From positions 1 to 27,164 of IMG/VR virus record IMGVR_UViG_3300031977_001857: DNA of 27,164 nucleotides, one strand, 5' to 3'. The translations under genes and the position numbers were made by a program. The notes beneath the pieces are model-generated. The model did no database searches and was not told where the DNA came from. It was given only the letters and a program-made list of their open reading frames with translations. The DNA is from a virus. Below are positions 10,259 to 27,164 of this stretch, piece by piece; the first letter of the stretch is position 1, and every line of letters begins with the position of its first letter.

Positions 10259-11119
10259 ATGTCGATGCATGACATCACTTACTTAAACTTACTGCGGGAT
10301 TTAGTAGATCGTGCAGAAAAGGTAGCTACCCGTCCAGATCGAACGGGTACAGGTACTGTATCCATCTTCGGTCCTCAATTAGAGTTCAACCTAAAGCACG
10401 GTTTCCCGTTACTGACGGTTAAGAAGACTCACGTTAAATCCATTATTCATGAGTTACTTTGGTTCCTTAACGGTGATACCAATATTAAGTATCTCAGTGA
10501 TAACGGCGTTACGATTTGGGACGAATGGAGCAACTCGGCAGGGAACCTTGGCCCAATCTACGGTTTTCAATGGCGTAGATGGCCTACCAAGTTTGGGGGT
10601 AGCGTAGATCAAATAGAAAACCTAATGTATGAGCTGCGTCATAACCCCTATTCAAGAAGGCATATTGTCTCAGGATGGAACGTGGAATATCTCCCTGAAC
10701 CAGATTTATCCCCCCAGGAAAACGTAACAGCAGGCAAGATGGCGTTACCGCCTTGTCATACTCTCTGGCAAGTATTCGTTGACGATGTAACAGAAGAGGT
10801 AAGTCTTAAGCTGTATCAACGTAGTGCGGACTACTTCCTTGGTGTTCCGTTTAATATTGCTTCCTATGCGTTCTTAACTCACATGATTGCTAACATACTA
10901 GATAGGCCAGTAGGTAAGCTCATCATGAGTTTTGGGGACTGTCACTTGTACTCAAACCATATTGAACAAGCGAAAGAGTTACTTGAGCGGAAACCAAAAG
11001 ACTCACCTGCATTACAGCTTTTGAGTAAGCCATCAAACTTATGGGATTACAAATATGACGACTTCGCCATAATCAATTACAATCCCCATCCAGTAATTAA
11101 AGCTCCCATCTCAGTTTAA
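10259..11119 (+). CDS. thyA: thymidylate synthase (ThyA)
   Basis: A 286-aa folate-dependent enzyme converting dUMP to dTMP with methylene-tetrahydrofolate. All main motifs are present: DRTGTGTVSIFG near residue 23, the catalytic Cys166 in LPPCHTLWQVF, RSADYFLGVPFNIASYA with Asn199 (Asn favours dUMP; Asp at this site marks dCMP hydroxymethylases), and SFGDCHLYSNHIEQ. An insertion before the active site (DLSPQENVTAGKM) resembles that of T4 Td. The frame is uninterrupted, with no intron. Length fits the family. The start ATG 10259 has a GAGAGA site upstream. As first gene of the rightward operon it supplies dTMP for phage replication. Confidence 0.97.
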   Translation: MSMHDITYLNLLRDLVDRAEKVATRPDRTGTGTVSIFGPQLEFNLKHGFPLLTVKKTHVKSIIHELLWFLNGDTNIKYLSDNGVTIWDEWSNSAGNLGPIYGFQWRRWPTKFGGSVDQIENLMYELRHNPYSRRHIVSGWNVEYLPEPDLSPQENVTAGKMALPPCHTLWQVFVDDVTEEVSLKLYQRSADYFLGVPFNIASYAFLTHMIANILDRPVGKLIMSFGDCHLYSNHIEQAKELLERKPKDSPALQLLSKPSNLWDYKYDDFAIINYNPHPVIKAPISV

Positions 11120-11752: not shown

Positions 11753-12334
11753 ATGACTCGTAAATTTAAAGAACCTATGGACAAGAAACTGGCCCTTAAG
11801 TTAGCAAAAGAACACTATCAAGAGTGTGTTGAGAAATGTGACGGTACTGACCTTTCTATAGCTCAATACTGTAAGAGTAAAGGTATTCCTGCGGAAGCTA
11901 TGTATAACTATAGACATTCCCTACGTAAACCTAAAACTTCTGGCTCAAAAGCTACTAACCCAGAAAAAGCAGAAACACTGGTTAAAGCTCGTAAAGAAGG
12001 AGAAGGGGTACATACCAAAAAAGGGGTTTTTATTGCTCCAGACTTCCTTACAAAAGCAGTAGGGCACTTACAAGATCGTGCAGTGACTTACGATAAGCCA
12101 GAAGGTGAGCGTTCTATGGCTAAAACCGTAGAAATGTTCAATGCCCTCACTGACTCTGCGATAACAGAAGAGCAGGGTTGGAAGTTTATGGCTTTACTTA
12201 AGTTGGTCCGCTCTGAGCAGGGTAACTTCAAAGCTGATAACTTTGAAGACGGTGCAGCTTATATGGCTTTAGCCGGAGAGACGGCTAGTAAAAACCAAAA
12301 AATTACTTACCAAGAAGGTAAGATGCCCTCCTGA
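11753..12334 (+). CDS. HTH-like N-terminus plus DUF6378-like domain protein
   Basis: A 193-aa protein. Residues about 30-60 (DLSIAQYCKSKGIPAEAMYN then YRHSLRK) resemble the helix-turn-helix at the start of transposase-type regulators. Residues about 110-180 (YDKPEGERSMAKTVEMFNAL, GWKFMALLKLVR, DNFEDGAAYMALAGE) match the pattern of the phage DUF6378 domain, whose Asp/Glu/Lys arrangement recalls nucleotide-metabolising all-alpha folds, though no activity is proven. The middle is a Lys-rich linker. The start has AAGGA about 8 nt upstream. It lies between a putative DNA-binding gene and a Lar-like gene in the replication operon. Confidence 0.65.
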   Translation: MTRKFKEPMDKKLALKLAKEHYQECVEKCDGTDLSIAQYCKSKGIPAEAMYNYRHSLRKPKTSGSKATNPEKAETLVKARKEGEGVHTKKGVFIAPDFLTKAVGHLQDRAVTYDKPEGERSMAKTVEMFNALTDSAITEEQGWKFMALLKLVRSEQGNFKADNFEDGAAYMALAGETASKNQKITYQEGKMPS

Positions 12335-19322: not shown

Positions 19323-19346
19323 GGGGCTGCTCAATCGAGCAACCCT
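19323..19346. terminator. hairpin at the convergent junction, overlapping the vRNAP stop
   Basis: TGCTC (19328-19332), loop AATC, GAGCA (19337-19341), extended past one mismatch by GGG/CCC. Read leftward it is followed by an interrupted T-rich stretch. It spans the vRNAP stop codon and may be a weak bidirectional terminator. Confidence 0.4.
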
Positions 19347-22300
19347 AGCAACACTTTCATTGTAATTGGTTCATCCCAAGCGTCTATGGCTTCTATAGCC
19401 CCACTTTCCAATGGATTACCTAACCTGCTTAGAATCCATGAATCATTAACAGACGGGATATTCCCTAAGAATCTATCTGCCAGAACCAGAAGAATACCTC
19501 TCGCCGTATTCTCTGAAAATAATCTGGCTATTACCTTTTGGATTCTCAGGAAATATCGTGTAAACATCAGTAAACCAGCCTTGTTCAACGTATGTAACGC
19601 TTTACCGGAAGGGATGTCATAGTTAATAAACGACTCACGGATAGTTCGTTGAGCGACATCTTCCTCAACACCTTCCCTTTTCAGCTTGTTATACATCGTG
19701 TACTTAGCGACAAAGTCACTCATCTGAGTAGTTTTATATAGCACTTTGTAGATCGGGGTATCCTTGGATACTGCTAAGAACTTACCCACTGTCACTAAAG
19801 GTTGAGGGAGTTTTTCTGTAAACTCGTCCAGCTTCTTATCTAAGTATGGCTTGAAGTTGTAGGATACCTCTTCATCCAAGTCTTCTAAGATAGAAGGGAA
19901 CTGTCCCGCATCCATTAAAGGAGTTACTGGATTATTCTTAATACTGGTTTCCAGTTCTACAATTCGATCATTGGCTTCATCTTCTCTACCAACAAGTAAG
20001 CCTGAAGAAAGCTTTAATTTAGTCTGGTTTAGTTCATGTAGCTCTTTTTGGTATCGAATCAGGGAATCAAAAGCTACACGATGGTCGTGTACAACATCTT
20101 TTAAAGATGCCCCATCCCACAGTAGTAAGGTTATGTTAGATATAATGTTACCGACTAAAGTGTCTAAGTTACGAATAACGTAAACATCCTTAACGTGCTT
20201 AACTACGTACTCCCACGCATCTTGAATCCTATCTAAACGGTGTACTGTATTTTTGCCGAGTAACTTTAAGAAAACTTCTGCTGCAATATTCTCTGCGGCA
20301 TTACGTATTTCCTTATCTTTTTTAACTATATTACTCAAACGAGCATCCCGGTAACCAAAGATCATATCCAGTACGTCAGCTCGAACGTACATGCTATCAC
20401 CTCCCCAAACTCTTCTAATTGCTTGTTTGGTGTGTTCTGGAAGCTGGATATACAGTTCCCTATGTCCTGCAGAAGAAGATTGAGGCCCAATCTCCACATA
20501 CATAGCAGATTTACGTTCCTTGTTCTCATTCCAATCTTGTTTAAGAGCACGTACAACTTCAGCATTCTGGGCTTTAGATGCTGGCTTATCCATGATACTA
20601 CCCATCATGGCCCCCATTACTTTAGTAATAGAAGTATCCCTGGAAAGTAAAGAATCTTTCTGGGTTGCTTCCATCATGTAACGGAACTTATAAATCCTAC
20701 CGTTACCATCAATAGCAGGTACTAAGCGTCCCTTATCCAGCTTATCGAACCTAGCAATAAAGTTAGCATCGCTTAAATTACGGTACTCAACAGTCTGTGC
20801 AGTTTTCTCTAACTTCACCCAACCAACAGTGGTTTTACTAACTTCTGGCTCAAAACCTTTACTCTGAGCACTGGTTAATGACATTGCTGCAGAGTTGTAT
20901 TGTGCTAAACCTCCGGTTTCGCTGTAATACAAACCCATACCTGTAAGATGCGCTTTATCAATATCTTGATGTTTGCCTAACAATTCATACCCATGTGCCT
21001 TCATTTCTGCTTCGTCAGCTAACGGCGCTGATTTTACTGCTACATAAGGATCATATAATTCACGGATATAACCTTTCTGCATCTTGGCTTTCTGACCAGA
21101 GAATAGGGCCTCTGTGGAGTTTCGAATCAGTCCCTGATTAAGTAGCATCAAATCCTTCAATACTTTTTCAGGATCAACCTGTTCAGACAGGTAGCTTCTT
21201 AAAGTAGATTTCTCTGCGCTCGGTAATCGCTGTAAAGCATACAATGTAGCCAAACGATCAATGATGGGTTCAATCTTATTAGACAAAGAGATGTCTACTT
21301 TCTGCTTTAACCCGGCTTTAGTTGCAATATTGTGAGCATTCAAAGATAACAAAGAAGTTTTAGACTCATCTGTTGCTAAGAAGTGGCCCAAAGCATAGGC
21401 AGCATTCTTAAAGTAGAAATCTTTACCTGTAAGCTTTTTCAAGGCTATCTCATGTGATTGGATTTCTTGTTTAAGAGCGGCACTGTCTTGTACCACCTCT
21501 AAGACCCTGGAAGCATCCATAGAGCTTAATAAACTTTGCAGGTCTGTACGTATTACCCCACGGGTTAACGCTCTTTCCTGCTCAGTAGAAGCCTCACCAA
21601 TGGCTTCACTGACTACTTCTTCCATGTCATTAATTACTTGCTGACGGTCTTTCTGGGAAATCTTGGCAGCATTTACCAGTTCATGTGCAAATCTAAGGTA
21701 AAGAGAATCTCCACGAACCTCTGTAAGTAATTTACTAAAGAAACCAGAGGACTTCTTAAACTTTGCCTGACGAAAGTGCTGTAACTGTTCTGAGAACTCG
21801 TCCAGCTTATCTCCATGGTAAAGATCAAGGAACTTACCAGTTCTACGTACTGCAGTAATGTCAGAAGATTTCATGGCATCGATAGCTTTATCAGCAACCT
21901 TACGGCTTGACTGATCGATGTAATCCATAACTTTACTTACATTATTATTTTTCTCAGCCAGCTTCTGTTGACGTAACTGCTCTCTACGTACCAAGCTAGT
22001 AGCTAATTGCATAACCTGCTTATTGGTTGCCGCAGTTGACCTATTATTAAATAAAAAGTTAGAGAATCTACGCAGTAAAGAGTCATACCAAATCTTAATA
22101 CGCTCACCAAGTTTAGTCCCCGCAGTAGGAATTATATTCTCAGGGGAATAATCCAAAGCAGTTCTCAGTGGCTCATAGGTCATTGAGAGAGCAGCAAATT
22201 GAGCTAGTAGACCTGAGCGGCGTTCCACGCCGTTGTCGGAATGGAAAAAGATACGGCGATATATCCGTGTCGCTTCCGCTTTCTCGCTGGCTGTGGCCGT

Positions 22301-25300
22301 GTCCCAATCCTTAACGAAATCTTTAGGACTAACCTTCTTCTTGGCTTCAGCGAATAGGTTCTCTAGTCGAGTATAAGCCAATGAGGTACGATCTAAAGCA
22401 GCTCTTATAGAGAGGTCAACCTGTTCAGCCACATACTGACTGGCTTCATCCATTACCAAACCACTGGTGTTGATACCGTTATATAAGGGCATATCTCCAC
22501 TCAGAATAGCTTGGTGGAATGCTTCTGCTGGATTAGCTTTACCCTGATGGCGTAACTTCTCGATGATATTCCCTAACGGGCCGTGTACTGAAGTCACTAA
22601 GGAATCCATAACAGAGTGTAGATGCTCAGTCTTAGTCTGTGAAAGACCCACTGAATTAGCTAAAGCCTGTAAGGTTTCGGATGATGACATCTCCATAAAC
22701 TGGGCCGTGTTAGCTGCCATAGGCAATACTTGCTGGCTCGGTAACTTAGTTTCCTGTACATCTGCACTTTCAATAATAGCTGCGCCATGTACCAAAAGAG
22801 CTTGGAAAGCATTTACCGTATTCTTGTCAGTATTACCTGTCAGTAGTTGCCCAATAAATTTAGCAAAAGCTCTTAAACCATTAAGAATATTCCCAGACTT
22901 GTCTTTAAAGGTGGAAGCATCGACTTCTACTTTGGCTAATACCTCTCGCTGGAACTCCGCATTAGTCAAACCCCAAGCGATAAACTCATCAAGATTAGTC
23001 ACTGATTTACCATGCTTGGCTTTAAGTTCTGGTGAACCATTCACATAAGCCATAACTTTGGTATACAACTGGCTTAAGTTACTTACTACTGGCTCAATCT
23101 CTTTAGAACCTTGACGTATCTTAAAATGAGTCGCTGCATGAACTAATTCATGTAACAAAACTTCTGGCGTCAAAGGTCTTTGAGTAAGCTCCGGGGAAGA
23201 GATACGGATAATTCCTTCATCTGGGAAGAAGTAACCACGGTTACCCTGACCTCTATACTTCTCAGGAACCAGTTCTGCTTCATTCTGGGCAGTAATAAAT
23301 TGAACCTTCATATCTGCAGGTAGGTTCCGAATTAACTTACCTAATACATAACGGTGACGGCTACGTACTTCAGTATCCTCAATTTCATTAATGGCTTGTA
23401 GAAGACTGTTTCTTATCTCTCCAAAAGTTTGGTCAGGTTTAGCATAAAAAGCTTCTACAAAACCAAGAGACATTATAGGAGTTTGCACCTCTTGCTGAAC
23501 TTCAGTACCTACATCTGTGGGAGGAGTAGCTGTACCACGTATAGCTGGGATATTTGAATCTGCTATCTGGCGTTGTAGTAATTGGTACAAGATATTTGGA
23601 TTTTTACCTGTAGCCTCTCGAATCTTATCCAGCATCAAAGGTTTAAGAGCTGCAGCTTCCCCTTCTTCGTTTAGGGAATCCCTAAAAGCTTGGTAGTCTT
23701 CTCTAATATATGTAGGTACGTCCTTACTTCTTAAACGAGAATCCATAAGTTTAATCAGTAAGGATTCTGAGAGATGCTCTGGGAAATTAGTATGCTGCGT
23801 AAATAGCTGCAGAGAGGCTTTACCTAAGTAGTCCTTAATGGAAGCAACATACTGCAGCTCAGCTTCAAGATTCTCAAGGGGAGTACCGTTCTTTTCAAGA
23901 GAAGCCTCATTATCAGCAAAAAGCTTACTTACAATTTTATTATAAGCATGTTCAAGATTACCTGTACGTGTGTATAGCTGACGGAATCTCGACAGTAATT
24001 CCTGACTTTTTTCTAAACCTGCTTTTTCTTCCTTGGTTATTCCAGACTTTAAACGCTGTTCTTGGTTTTCCTGACTCAACGTCAATAGTGTATTGATAAC
24101 TGAAGTATCGGGTATTACACCTTCTCGAACCAAACGCTTACCAATACGTCCCTCAAAAGATTGCCCCTGCAACTCTCTAATACGGGCTTTCTGTGCTTCT
24201 GTGACATTATGGTACGCGCCTGAATAAGCGTACTGGTGCACTCTTTCTATGGTAGATAGGAACTCTAAGCGGTTAGCGTCTGCTTGTTTAAGGAACTCAA
24301 ACTGTTCTCCTATCCGTTGTCCTAACGCACTTACAGAGGTAGAACCTCCTAAATACTGCATAGCGTTGTAGTAAGTACGGTAAGCTGACACTAACACTTC
24401 TTCGGGAATACTATGTTCAATCATAGCTTCCATAGTAGTGTTATTGTACTTCTCCATAACTTCTTTAAGTAGAGAAGGGATTGCTATGGCCGCATCATGG
24501 ACATTAAGAATGTTATAGTTCTGATAAACTGAAGTAGCAATGAAAGAGTCAGTAGCGTGAATGTTACCTACATAAGCTCTCGCTCCTGCTGTATCAAACT
24601 CAGGACGTTTGCCCCGGTAACCAATATTACTTAACTGAGTAACAACCCCTTTAATTTTCCTAGTAAGATTCTCCAATTTAATAGGAACACTTCCCTTATA
24701 AGGCGACATTTCTCCAGAAGGTACTCTGGCAGACGTTAATGGGGCTGATAAGTGTCCTGTAGATATTGCTCCACCTTTGCTACCAGGGGTAGCCAATATA
24801 GGGGCCATCTCCATTACTTCTTTGAAGATAGCATTGTATTGATCTCCTGTTAGGTCATCCAAGTAGTTACCACCTTCGGTTTTAGCAATACCTGCAGCTT
24901 CTTTGGCTTCCTCTACTTTTTTAAGGAATACTTCGTTAAGTGCCGCAGACATGCTGTTAGTGAGGCCAGTAACAGAATCCCTTACTGCCGTAAATGGATG
25001 CAATACGTCTTCAATAACATTTTGTGTGGTACCTCCGAAGTGATCCATAAACTGACGGTGAAAAGCTTGAATAGCTCTAGGATTAAGTTCTACATGCTCC
25101 AAGTCACTAAGTTTTTTATAATCAAATGGGGCAACTCCTACTTGCGTTTCGAACTGCTTAAGCATATCAACCAGTTCTTTTTTCAGTACGTTATCTTTAC
25201 CCCCAGTTGCTTCAATTTTAGAATAAAGTTTCTGCACACCGTCCAGCCAGTTATCCAACAACGTACTGCCCATATTGGTTACAGCTTTTCTAGTAGAGGA

Positions 25301-27164
25301 ACCGAAAGTAATCTCTGTCAATGGGCCTTTGAATAGCTTACGAGCAGCCGTAGTTACTTTCCCCGAAGATTGGGTTAAGTCTCCGATAACGCCTTGCCAG
25401 AAAGGAGGAAGATTACTTGTATTCAAGGCTTCGGATACTCTAAAGGCTAAGGTCTCATACAAGTCTTGGCTGGTTTCCTGTTCTGCCCAGTCTCCAAATT
25501 CACCTTCTTTCTCTTCATCTCCGGCTTTAAGGTCTTCAATATCCTCTTTGGCAAAGAAGCCACCTTTCTTTCGCCACTCTGCAAAGTTTTTAAGAGCAAG
25601 AATCCCTGCTTGAATAAAGGATAAGAACGGGCCGTTATTAACCCCATCAGCTTCACGAGTTAAGGTAGCCTTAAAGGTTTTACCCGGCTCTAACTTGAAA
25701 CGTGACCACTGCCATAAAGCATCTAATGAATGGAAGTTCTCACCACCTTTAGCTACACCGTTTTCTATTGCAGTGTAATCAGCGTCAGTCATTTCCTGTC
25801 CGGTAAGTAGCTTTTCTATAGCAGCTAATGCACCCTTAATTTCAGGGGCATCCATGGTAGATTTCCACTGCTTAAGAGCTTTAGCAGGAGACTTCTTATC
25901 TACTTTGACGCCTAAACCTTCAAGCACTGCTAACTTAAACTCTTTACGTTTAGCAGCAGCTTCTTTAGTCCTAGACTTAGTAGGTACTTCATACTCACCA
26001 CCTTCATTCATCATTACATGACGATGAGTCTTGTATAGAAGGGGATTCAGTAAGTTGGAAACCAACCCCATACGTTGAGTAACCCAAAACTCTCTCTTGA
26101 AGTAGATAGGGGTATTTACGTCCCAACTGTTAATGAATTCAAATAGGTTATCCAGCTCATTACGTAAACCAAGATTCTTACCGTGTACAGCATCTTTCTT
26201 AGAGGCTATCACCCCTTTTTCGGATACGATGCCTGCAGCACTTTCAAGAACTCTACGAGGAAGTAGATGTAAGAAGCCTGACTCAGGATTAACCGCATCA
26301 TCACGTAAGAATGAGGCTTGTTTCTGAGCCTTATTACCGCCTTCAGCCAGTTTCTTAGGCACAGCCATGATGGACTTTTTAACTCTTCGTGACATGTCCT
26401 CTGGGGGCGTATCTGTAGGCCACTCACGAGCATTCTCTACTTCAAAGAGCTTACCCGTAATACCTTTGGCTCCACGAACATCCTGTACCACATTCTGGAT
26501 TTGTGAAATAAAGTTTCTATCCTTTAAAGATTTGGTTTCGGCAGCAAGTCTATAAAAATTCATAGAGCCCCCATCGCTTTCGTTATTATTACCGTCTAAA
26601 CCAAATTTCTTTAAATCTTTGATAGGAATGAAGCTTTCTTTAATTAAACCAGCGTTTTTCATGTATGCAGTAGCGTAAGCACCTAACTCATTACGTAAAT
26701 TTTCCTGAACCTGTTTAGGTGCTGTTTTATGAGCTTTTCGGCCCATAACATCTACTATTGCTGAACCTAACTCTTCAATGAATTGGTTACGCACAGTGCC
26801 GCCGTACTGAATCTTGTGAATGGCTAAGTTAAAACCTTCTTCCCAATAGTTAACAGTTTCACCTCCAAACTTCTCCAAGATTTTATCTCTAGGAGTAATG
26901 GCAGTATTAGTAGCTTTAAAAGCAATAGTTTCAAAGATACCTATAGCAATAGCTGCTGCAGCATTAGGATCAAGTTGCCCGTCAGTAAGTAAACTTTGAG
27001 TAATGTTATAAAACTTGTCCTTGGCTTCTCTTTTTCCAAATCCATCAATAATACCTGTGAGGTGTGATTGGATAAAAGCAGCCAGTCTTGATAAAGACCG
27101 TAGTTGCTTTTCCTGTATCTCAGGAGATGGGTCAAGTAAAGCTTGAATCCTTGGGTGCCCGGTA
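19331..27164 (-). CDS. vRNAP: N4-type virion RNA polymerase (vRNAP), 5' end beyond the window
   Basis: The frame is open without a stop from the right edge to TGA at 19331-19333, at least 2,610 residues. A TTG at 26876-26878 is not the start, since the frame continues with sensible protein above it. Numbering from the first complete codon in the window: a candidate T/DxxGR-type motif with Arg364 (VTQRMG), motif A Asp506 (ADGVNNG), motif B Arg608/Lys612/Phe620 (R-x3-K-x7-F-G) and motif C Asp890 (NVHDA). The spacings (142, 106 and 278 residues from Arg to Asp to Lys to Asp) closely follow N4 mini-vRNAP (Arg424, Asp559, Lys670, Asp951). Motif B has Phe where T7 and N4 have Tyr. The ~1,600-residue C-terminal region is helical and contains HELVHAATH (from residue 1338), with Glu1393 as possible third zinc ligand. 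In N4 the protein is packaged, injected and transcribes early genes. About 1,000 N-terminal residues are probably missing here. Confidence 0.92.
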   Translation of the reverse strand, partial: TGHPRIQALLDPSPEIQEKQLRSLSRLAAFIQSHLTGIIDGFGKREAKDKFYNITQSLLTDGQLDPNAAAAIAIGIFETIAFKATNTAITPRDKILEKFGGETVNYWEEGFNLAIHKIQYGGTVRNQFIEELGSAIVDVMGRKAHKTAPKQVQENLRNELGAYATAYMKNAGLIKESFIPIKDLKKFGLDGNNNESDGGSMNFYRLAAETKSLKDRNFISQIQNVVQDVRGAKGITGKLFEVENAREWPTDTPPEDMSRRVKKSIMAVPKKLAEGGNKAQKQASFLRDDAVNPESGFLHLLPRRVLESAAGIVSEKGVIASKKDAVHGKNLGLRNELDNLFEFINSWDVNTPIYFKREFWVTQRMGLVSNLLNPLLYKTHRHVMMNEGGEYEVPTKSRTKEAAAKRKEFKLAVLEGLGVKVDKKSPAKALKQWKSTMDAPEIKGALAAIEKLLTGQEMTDADYTAIENGVAKGGENFHSLDALWQWSRFKLEPGKTFKATLTREADGVNNGPFLSFIQAGILALKNFAEWRKKGGFFAKEDIEDLKAGDEEKEGEFGDWAEQETSQDLYETLAFRVSEALNTSNLPPFWQGVIGDLTQSSGKVTTAARKLFKGPLTEITFGSSTRKAVTNMGSTLLDNWLDGVQKLYSKIEATGGKDNVLKKELVDMLKQFETQVGVAPFDYKKLSDLEHVELNPRAIQAFHRQFMDHFGGTTQNVIEDVLHPFTAVRDSVTGLTNSMSAALNEVFLKKVEEAKEAAGIAKTEGGNYLDDLTGDQYNAIFKEVMEMAPILATPGSKGGAISTGHLSAPLTSARVPSGEMSPYKGSVPIKLENLTRKIKGVVTQLSNIGYRGKRPEFDTAGARAYVGNIHATDSFIATSVYQNYNILNVHDAAIAIPSLLKEVMEKYNNTTMEAMIEHSIPEEVLVSAYRTYYNAMQYLGGSTSVSALGQRIGEQFEFLKQADANRLEFLSTIERVHQYAYSGAYHNVTEAQKARIRELQGQSFEGRIGKRLVREGVIPDTSVINTLLTLSQENQEQRLKSGITKEEKAGLEKSQELLSRFRQLYTRTGNLEHAYNKIVSKLFADNEASLEKNGTPLENLEAELQYVASIKDYLGKASLQLFTQHTNFPEHLSESLLIKLMDSRLRSKDVPTYIREDYQAFRDSLNEEGEAAALKPLMLDKIREATGKNPNILYQLLQRQIADSNIPAIRGTATPPTDVGTEVQQEVQTPIMSLGFVEAFYAKPDQTFGEIRNSLLQAINEIEDTEVRSRHRYVLGKLIRNLPADMKVQFITAQNEAELVPEKYRGQGNRGYFFPDEGIIRISSPELTQRPLTPEVLLHELVHAATHFKIRQGSKEIEPVVSNLSQLYTKVMAYVNGSPELKAKHGKSVTNLDEFIAWGLTNAEFQREVLAKVEVDASTFKDKSGNILNGLRAFAKFIGQLLTGNTDKNTVNAFQALLVHGAAIIESADVQETKLPSQQVLPMAANTAQFMEMSSSETLQALANSVGLSQTKTEHLHSVMDSLVTSVHGPLGNIIEKLRHQGKANPAEAFHQAILSGDMPLYNGINTSGLVMDEASQYVAEQVDLSIRAALDRTSLAYTRLENLFAEAKKKVSPKDFVKDWDTATASEKAEATRIYRRIFFHSDNGVERRSGLLAQFAALSMTYEPLRTALDYSPENIIPTAGTKLGERIKIWYDSLLRRFSNFLFNNRSTAATNKQVMQLATSLVRREQLRQQKLAEKNNNVSKVMDYIDQSSRKVADKAIDAMKSSDITAVRRTGKFLDLYHGDKLDEFSEQLQHFRQAKFKKSSGFFSKLLTEVRGDSLYLRFAHELVNAAKISQKDRQQVINDMEEVVSEAIGEASTEQERALTRGVIRTDLQSLLSSMDASRVLEVVQDSAALKQEIQSHEIALKKLTGKDFYFKNAAYALGHFLATDESKTSLLSLNAHNIATKAGLKQKVDISLSNKIEPIIDRLATLYALQRLPSAEKSTLRSYLSEQVDPEKVLKDLMLLNQGLIRNSTEALFSGQKAKMQKGYIRELYDPYVAVKSAPLADEAEMKAHGYELLGKHQDIDKAHLTGMGLYYSETGGLAQYNSAAMSLTSAQSKGFEPEVSKTTVGWVKLEKTAQTVEYRNLSDANFIARFDKLDKGRLVPAIDGNGRIYKFRYMMEATQKDSLLSRDTSITKVMGAMMGSIMDKPASKAQNAEVVRALKQDWNENKERKSAMYVEIGPQSSSAGHRELYIQLPEHTKQAIRRVWGGDSMYVRADVLDMIFGYRDARLSNIVKKDKEIRNAAENIAAEVFLKLLGKNTVHRLDRIQDAWEYVVKHVKDVYVIRNLDTLVGNIISNITLLLWDGASLKDVVHDHRVAFDSLIRYQKELHELNQTKLKLSSGLLVGREDEANDRIVELETSIKNNPVTPLMDAGQFPSILEDLDEEVSYNFKPYLDKKLDEFTEKLPQPLVTVGKFLAVSKDTPIYKVLYKTTQMSDFVAKYTMYNKLKREGVEEDVAQRTIRESFINYDIPSGKALHTLNKAGLLMFTRYFLRIQKVIARLFSENTARGILLVLADRFLGNIPSVNDSWILSRLGNPLESGAIEAIDAWDEPITMKVLLGLLD

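Follow-up and report, generated by a model that had tools for sequence, protein, structure and literature searches.

The classic sugar-selecting side chains of a single-subunit RNA polymerase (RNAP) are Tyr639 and His784 of T7 RNAP, a pair known mainly from mutants. Tyr639 senses the 2' group through its hydroxyl, and the contact of His784 is with the 2'-OH or the minor groove; the Y639F enzyme takes nucleotides with 2'-F or 2'-NH2, and the double mutant Y639F/H784A was designed for bulkier ones (PMC4551944, PMC13286181). Similarly, the Y564F mutant of Syn5 discriminates less against 2'-F nucleotides (PMC4538805). Among natural enzymes, Phe has been reported at the corresponding position of virion RNA polymerases (vRNAPs): a supplementary legend in Ceyssens et al. 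2010 gives "the Y678F substitution" as the sole motif exception in their N4-like phages, the phages concerned being LUZ7/LIT1/PEV2 (PMC3715699). The substitution itself is thus prior knowledge, in print since 2010.

The gene analysed here lies on a virus record of 27,164 bases (IMGVR_UViG_3300031977_001857, positions 1 to 27,164), and this whole stretch is what we call the window. The ORF is open at the right end of the window and its N-terminal part lies outside, so residue numbers refer to positions within the partial 2610-aa ORF (Table 1). Full-length N4-type vRNAPs have ~3400-3500 aa; they are carried in the virion and initiate at hairpin promoters. Residues 48-993 match PHROG 2206 "virion RNA polymerase" with E=6e-118 (the first 1000 residues were searched), and the catalytic residues R364, D506, R608/K612 and D890 follow one another in the order T/DxxGR, A, B, C and align with those of N4 and T7. 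The EADGVNNG segment fits ExDGxxxG, the motif used for calling N4-like vRNAPs (PMC10654107), and there is not a single Cys in the 2610 aa of this partial ORF, which lacks its N-terminal part; a cysteine-free sequence is a trait described for vRNAPs (PMC3715699, PMC2784036). A tblastn search with the protein gave 256 phage records, all of them <60% identical and headed by Pseudomonas N4-like phages at ~27%. Profiles were needed to detect relatives in the PDB and among viral contigs, as the single-sequence PDB search gave no match and the single-sequence viral-contig scan no relative. The AlphaFold2 model of the polymerase domain (alignment of 70 sequences; mean pLDDT 88, pTM 0.88) has the N4 mini-vRNAP 3c46 as its best PDB match (VIA Z 29.2, 789 residues aligned, rmsd 4.4), followed by T7 RNAP (Z 23.6) and mitochondrial RNAPs. 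With the PHROG match, the motifs in order and the N4 mini-vRNAP fold, the identification as an N4-type vRNAP made in the preliminary description is borne out: the gene is the virion RNA polymerase of a Schitoviridae (N4-like) phage, and it is an ordinary new member of that group carrying an already known substitution.

Table 1. Positions in the window of the vRNAP gene and of the features discussed in the text
Feature	Position	Strand	Basis
Virion RNA polymerase (vRNAP) gene	19331..27163	minus	ORF; the window holds 2610 codons and lacks the 5' end
Modelled polymerase domain with single-subunit RNAP fold	24329..27031	minus	AlphaFold2
Gln363-Arg364, T/DxxGR with Gln for Gly (N4 G423-R424; T7 G424-R425)	26072..26077	minus	alignments
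Asp506, motif A catalytic Asp (N4 D559, T7 D537), within EADGVNNG	25646..25648	minus	alignments
Motif B, R608-x3-K612-x7-F620-(G621)	25304..25342	minus	translation, N4 alignment
Phe620, codon TTC, N4 Tyr678 / T7 Tyr639 column	25304..25306	minus	alignments
His869, T7 His784 / N4 Gly926 column; putative partner of Phe620	24557..24559	minus	alignments
His889-Asp890, motif C catalytic HD (T7 H811-D812, N4 D951)	24494..24499	minus	alignments
HELVHAATH, HExxH motif	23126..23152	minus	sequence; cf. N4 gp50 C1 domain

Some other features of the enzyme and of the window deserve mention. Residue 375 (26039-26041, minus strand), in the NPQ segment that follows T/DxxGR, is Leu where 97% of 203 vRNAP cores have Gln, and residue 509 (25637-25639, minus strand), in the DGVNNG of motif A, is Asn in place of a Thr present in 94% of the cores. 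About 7 extra residues relative to the relatives follow motif B in two alignments (LDNWLDGVQ region, about 25235-25262, minus strand). An HExxH motif is present in the C1 domain of N4 gp50 (PMC12633501). Elsewhere, the window carries a thymidylate synthase gene (10259-11119, plus strand), near which there are matches to phage primase, exonuclease, Sak4-like annealing protein and SSB families, and a gene at 11753-12334 (plus strand) whose protein contains Pfam DUF6378 (E=7e-10).

The segment RKLFKGPLTEITFG, at 25342-25301 on the minus strand, belongs to the vRNAP ORF, and translation of the 13 codons from 25342 to 25304 gives RKLFKGPLTEITF. Motif B therefore reads R-KLF-K-GPLTEIT-F-G, the R-x3-K-x7-F-G with a TTC codon that had been proposed, and the codon of Phe620 is seen as GAA on the plus strand. 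In a MAFFT alignment with N4 gp50, Phe620 falls exactly on N4 residue 678, with no shift off that column. Furthermore, when the vRNAP profile was compared with T7 RNAP by hhalign, no motif being supplied, T7 R627/K631/Y639/G640 were placed on R608/K612/F620/G621 of the window, in agreement with the earlier assignment of this Phe to the Tyr678/Tyr639 column. The same comparison placed T7 R425, D537, H784, D787, H811 and D812 on R364, D506, H869, D872, H889 and D890, although the run was weak (probability 14%, the distal part being matched at a low threshold) and no readable match at 784 came from a second setting. Because of this weakness, and with the help of an H-x-x-D pattern that vRNAP and T7 have in common 21-28 residues upstream of the motif C Asp, the register of His869 with T7 His784 seems good but not beyond doubt. 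As overall identity to N4 is ~15%, the Phe could in principle reflect an alignment shift or a sequencing error, the true Tyr column lying elsewhere. We found no evidence supporting this, and we give it practically no credence: R-x3-K-x7-[YF]-G is gap-free in nearly all homologues, the register with N4 678 is exact and Phe is also found in independently assembled relatives. In fact, the closest neighbours of the window on the tree (L078, L097, L104 and L142, of which the nearest is ~33% identical to it) form an all-Phe clade with it. Phe620 is therefore not a sequencing slip, and the alignments refute an origin in misalignment or error.

The natural Tyr-to-Phe change singled out in the preliminary description is thus real, but it is not peculiar to this phage. 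A first survey of 93 distinct cores, a sample biased to Phe and to the Pseudomonas side, contained 60 with Phe and 33 with Tyr. When the scans were also seeded from other lineages, 213 non-redundant cores were obtained among the matches listed, 141 with Tyr, 70 with Phe and 2 unreadable. Phe is therefore present in 70 of the 211 readable non-redundant cores among these matches, including LUZ7, LIT1, Littlefix and phCDa, a fraction of about one third that is only rough because the searches of viral contigs were pattern-based. All sampled Migulavirinae, Littlefixvirus and Shizishanvirus have Phe. Changes between Phe and Tyr number about 11-13 on the trees; 6 of them are required by branches with good support in the larger tree. 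In five other vRNAPs (L018, L020, L015, L017 and L008) the motif-B Tyr is followed by Asn or Ser instead of Gly, and these YN and YS sequences depart from the RxxxKxxxxxxxYG signature.

T7-like RNAPs served as a control outside the vRNAPs. When viral DNA was scanned with a pattern encoding K-x2-V-M-T-L-[AP]-Y-G, at least 120 stretches matched; among the matches listed, Tyr was found in 81 of 81 sequences aligning to T7 RNAP (T7 included) and His at T7 position 784 in 73 of 73 readable T7-like sequences. The same pattern written with Phe found three viral stretches, none of which is an RNAP gene. Within the reach of the motif-B pattern, the presence of Phe in T7-like RNAPs was therefore rejected, and RNAPs other than vRNAPs usually combine Tyr with His.

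Within the vRNAPs, the state of the motif-B residue is coupled to that of the column of T7 His784 (926 in N4 numbering). Among 203 cores, 67 of the 68 with Phe have His in this column, and those with Tyr have Gly (64), Gln (29), His (26), Ser (9) or other residues and gaps (7). The sole exception, L162, has Ile there; the motif B of this divergent enzyme has NFL instead of xFG. In Phe enzymes 29 columns are fixed to 95% or more; of these, His926 is found least often in Tyr enzymes (20%). Column 926 is His or Gln in 122 cores, which comprise 67 Phe/His, 26 Tyr/His and 29 Tyr/Gln but no Phe/Gln, with the Tyr/Gln and Phe/His clades interleaved on the tree. A correlated-evolution test comparing dependent and independent rates in these 122 cores ranked column 926 first of 510 for covariation with Phe/Tyr (LRT 29.5, median 4.8), followed by columns 922 (LRT 19.9) and 930 (LRT 15.5, rank 3) of the same segment. 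Selecting these cores by their residue at 926 may favour that column. With all 203 rows, an unrelated column, 469, stands above 926 (LRT 33.7 versus 28.6). The Gln of the QR dipeptide, Gln363, was also considered as the main partner of Phe. Its column, 423, beside the Arg of T/DxxGR, reaches rank 8 of 510 (LRT 14.4), a weaker link than that of His869, and Tyr/Gln-423 cases are known. The suggestion of a compensating change elsewhere was a good guess, given the coupling of Phe to His in the T7-His784 column. No description of this coupling was found in the literature searched, where it appears to be undescribed.

Phe and Tyr are one base apart and interchange repeatedly, and the Phe-rich clade and Enquatrovirinae differ in many columns, so the choice between them could be near-neutral drift and the link to His a mere consequence of the shared ancestry of the Phe clade. 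An independent-pairs sign test leaves room for this, as it was not significant with so few pairs (5-7 usable pairs, median p 0.125-0.25), the opposite-direction pairs averaging at most about 0.1. However, shared ancestry does not sit well with interleaved Tyr/Gln and Phe/His clades from which Phe/Gln is absent, nor with a column 926 that stands above the other 509 in the 122-core subset. Moreover, simulations of either trait uncoupled from the other, on trees that contain long branches, gave on average 13-16 Phe/Gln cores against the 0 observed, and in each test, with about 1,800-2,600 runs on FastTree and IQ-TREE trees, at most one run went down to 0. We regard drift with shared ancestry as an unlikely explanation, though one that keeps some weight.

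What this combination means for the enzyme can be approached by analogy with the T7, SP6 and Syn5 mutants, from which we infer the altered sugar selectivity of Phe vRNAPs. No catalytic Arg, Lys or Asp residue is missing, so DNA would be copied into RNA by normal chemistry. With Phe620, the incoming sugar would no longer be checked by a Tyr hydroxyl, and His869, at the position of T7 His784, would be the remaining sugar check. The window vRNAP has Phe in the T7 Tyr639 column, as Y639F does, and keeps the equivalent of His784 that is missing from Y639F/H784A. We therefore think it fairly probable that the enzyme works without the Tyr-OH check and with the His check, resembling T7 Y639F and not the double mutant. 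The expected phenotype would be some acceptance of dNTPs and 2'-F-NTPs, with bulky 2' groups still poorly used. Cells could tolerate such a relaxed choice, since they contain far more rNTPs than dNTPs (an excess of NTPs is indicated in PMC10639073). One of the two sugar-sensing side chains would be dispensable, as Tyr/Gly or Tyr/Gln occur in N4-like and other vRNAPs and Phe/His here, and the loss of both is almost never seen among the sampled cores. This distribution suggests that the two checks could be partly redundant.

It could also be that selectivity has been fully restored, Gln363, His869 and Ser873 forming a rearranged 2'-OH pocket as strict as that of the N4 vRNAP. Two of these residues do track Phe, with Gln in column 423 (N4 numbering) at rank 8 and Ser in column 930 at rank 3 of 510, and column 423 adjoins the equivalent of T7 Arg425, which is among four residues close to the nucleotide that were randomised in T7 engineering (PMC4551944). 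Nevertheless, wild-type T7 RNAP has both His784 and Arg425 and its selectivity is still relaxed by Y639F (PMC4538805, PMC4551944), which indicates that these residues alone do not restore selectivity in T7, and we consider a restored pocket quite unlikely. The N4 vRNAP is also needed for N4 DNA replication (PMC2784036), and a further reading is that this lineage was selected for relaxed sugar choice, the vRNAP making mixed ribo/deoxy primers or transcripts with Phe/His as the tuned state; we hold this to be very improbable. Under the Y639F-like behaviour that we favour, natural Phe RNAPs are candidates for making 2'-modified RNA. Evolution has varied both sugar-selecting positions many times within this single family of enzymes, and natural vRNAPs almost lack Phe without His, the pairing with which laboratories have relaxed the enzyme most. 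Which of the two residues is dispensable, and when, is directly testable on natural enzymes.

Among the described systems, the Pseudomonas phages LUZ7, LIT1 and PEV2 (Migulavirinae, Schitoviridae) are like the window in having a giant vRNAP with Phe in the Tyr678 column, QR in T/DxxGR, His in the T7-His784 column, an HDA motif C and, over the 2610 aa present in the window, no cysteine. However, core identity to them is only ~29%, and the window differs in having NPL for NPQ, DGVNNG for DGVTNG and 7 extra residues after motif B. Escherichia phage N4 gp50 (PDB 2PO4, 3C3L, 9PNR) shares the fold, the motifs, the catalytic residues and an HExxH in the C-terminal region, but it has Tyr678, Gly926, GR and FDG, with an identity of ~14-15%. 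At the two sugar-selecting positions N4 is in fact the reverse of the window, with Tyr kept and His replaced by Gly. Wild-type T7 RNAP differs from both states in having Tyr plus His, whereas T7 Y639F is like the window in carrying Phe in the same column and keeping His784, a Phe state that is natural in the vRNAP described here and engineered in T7.
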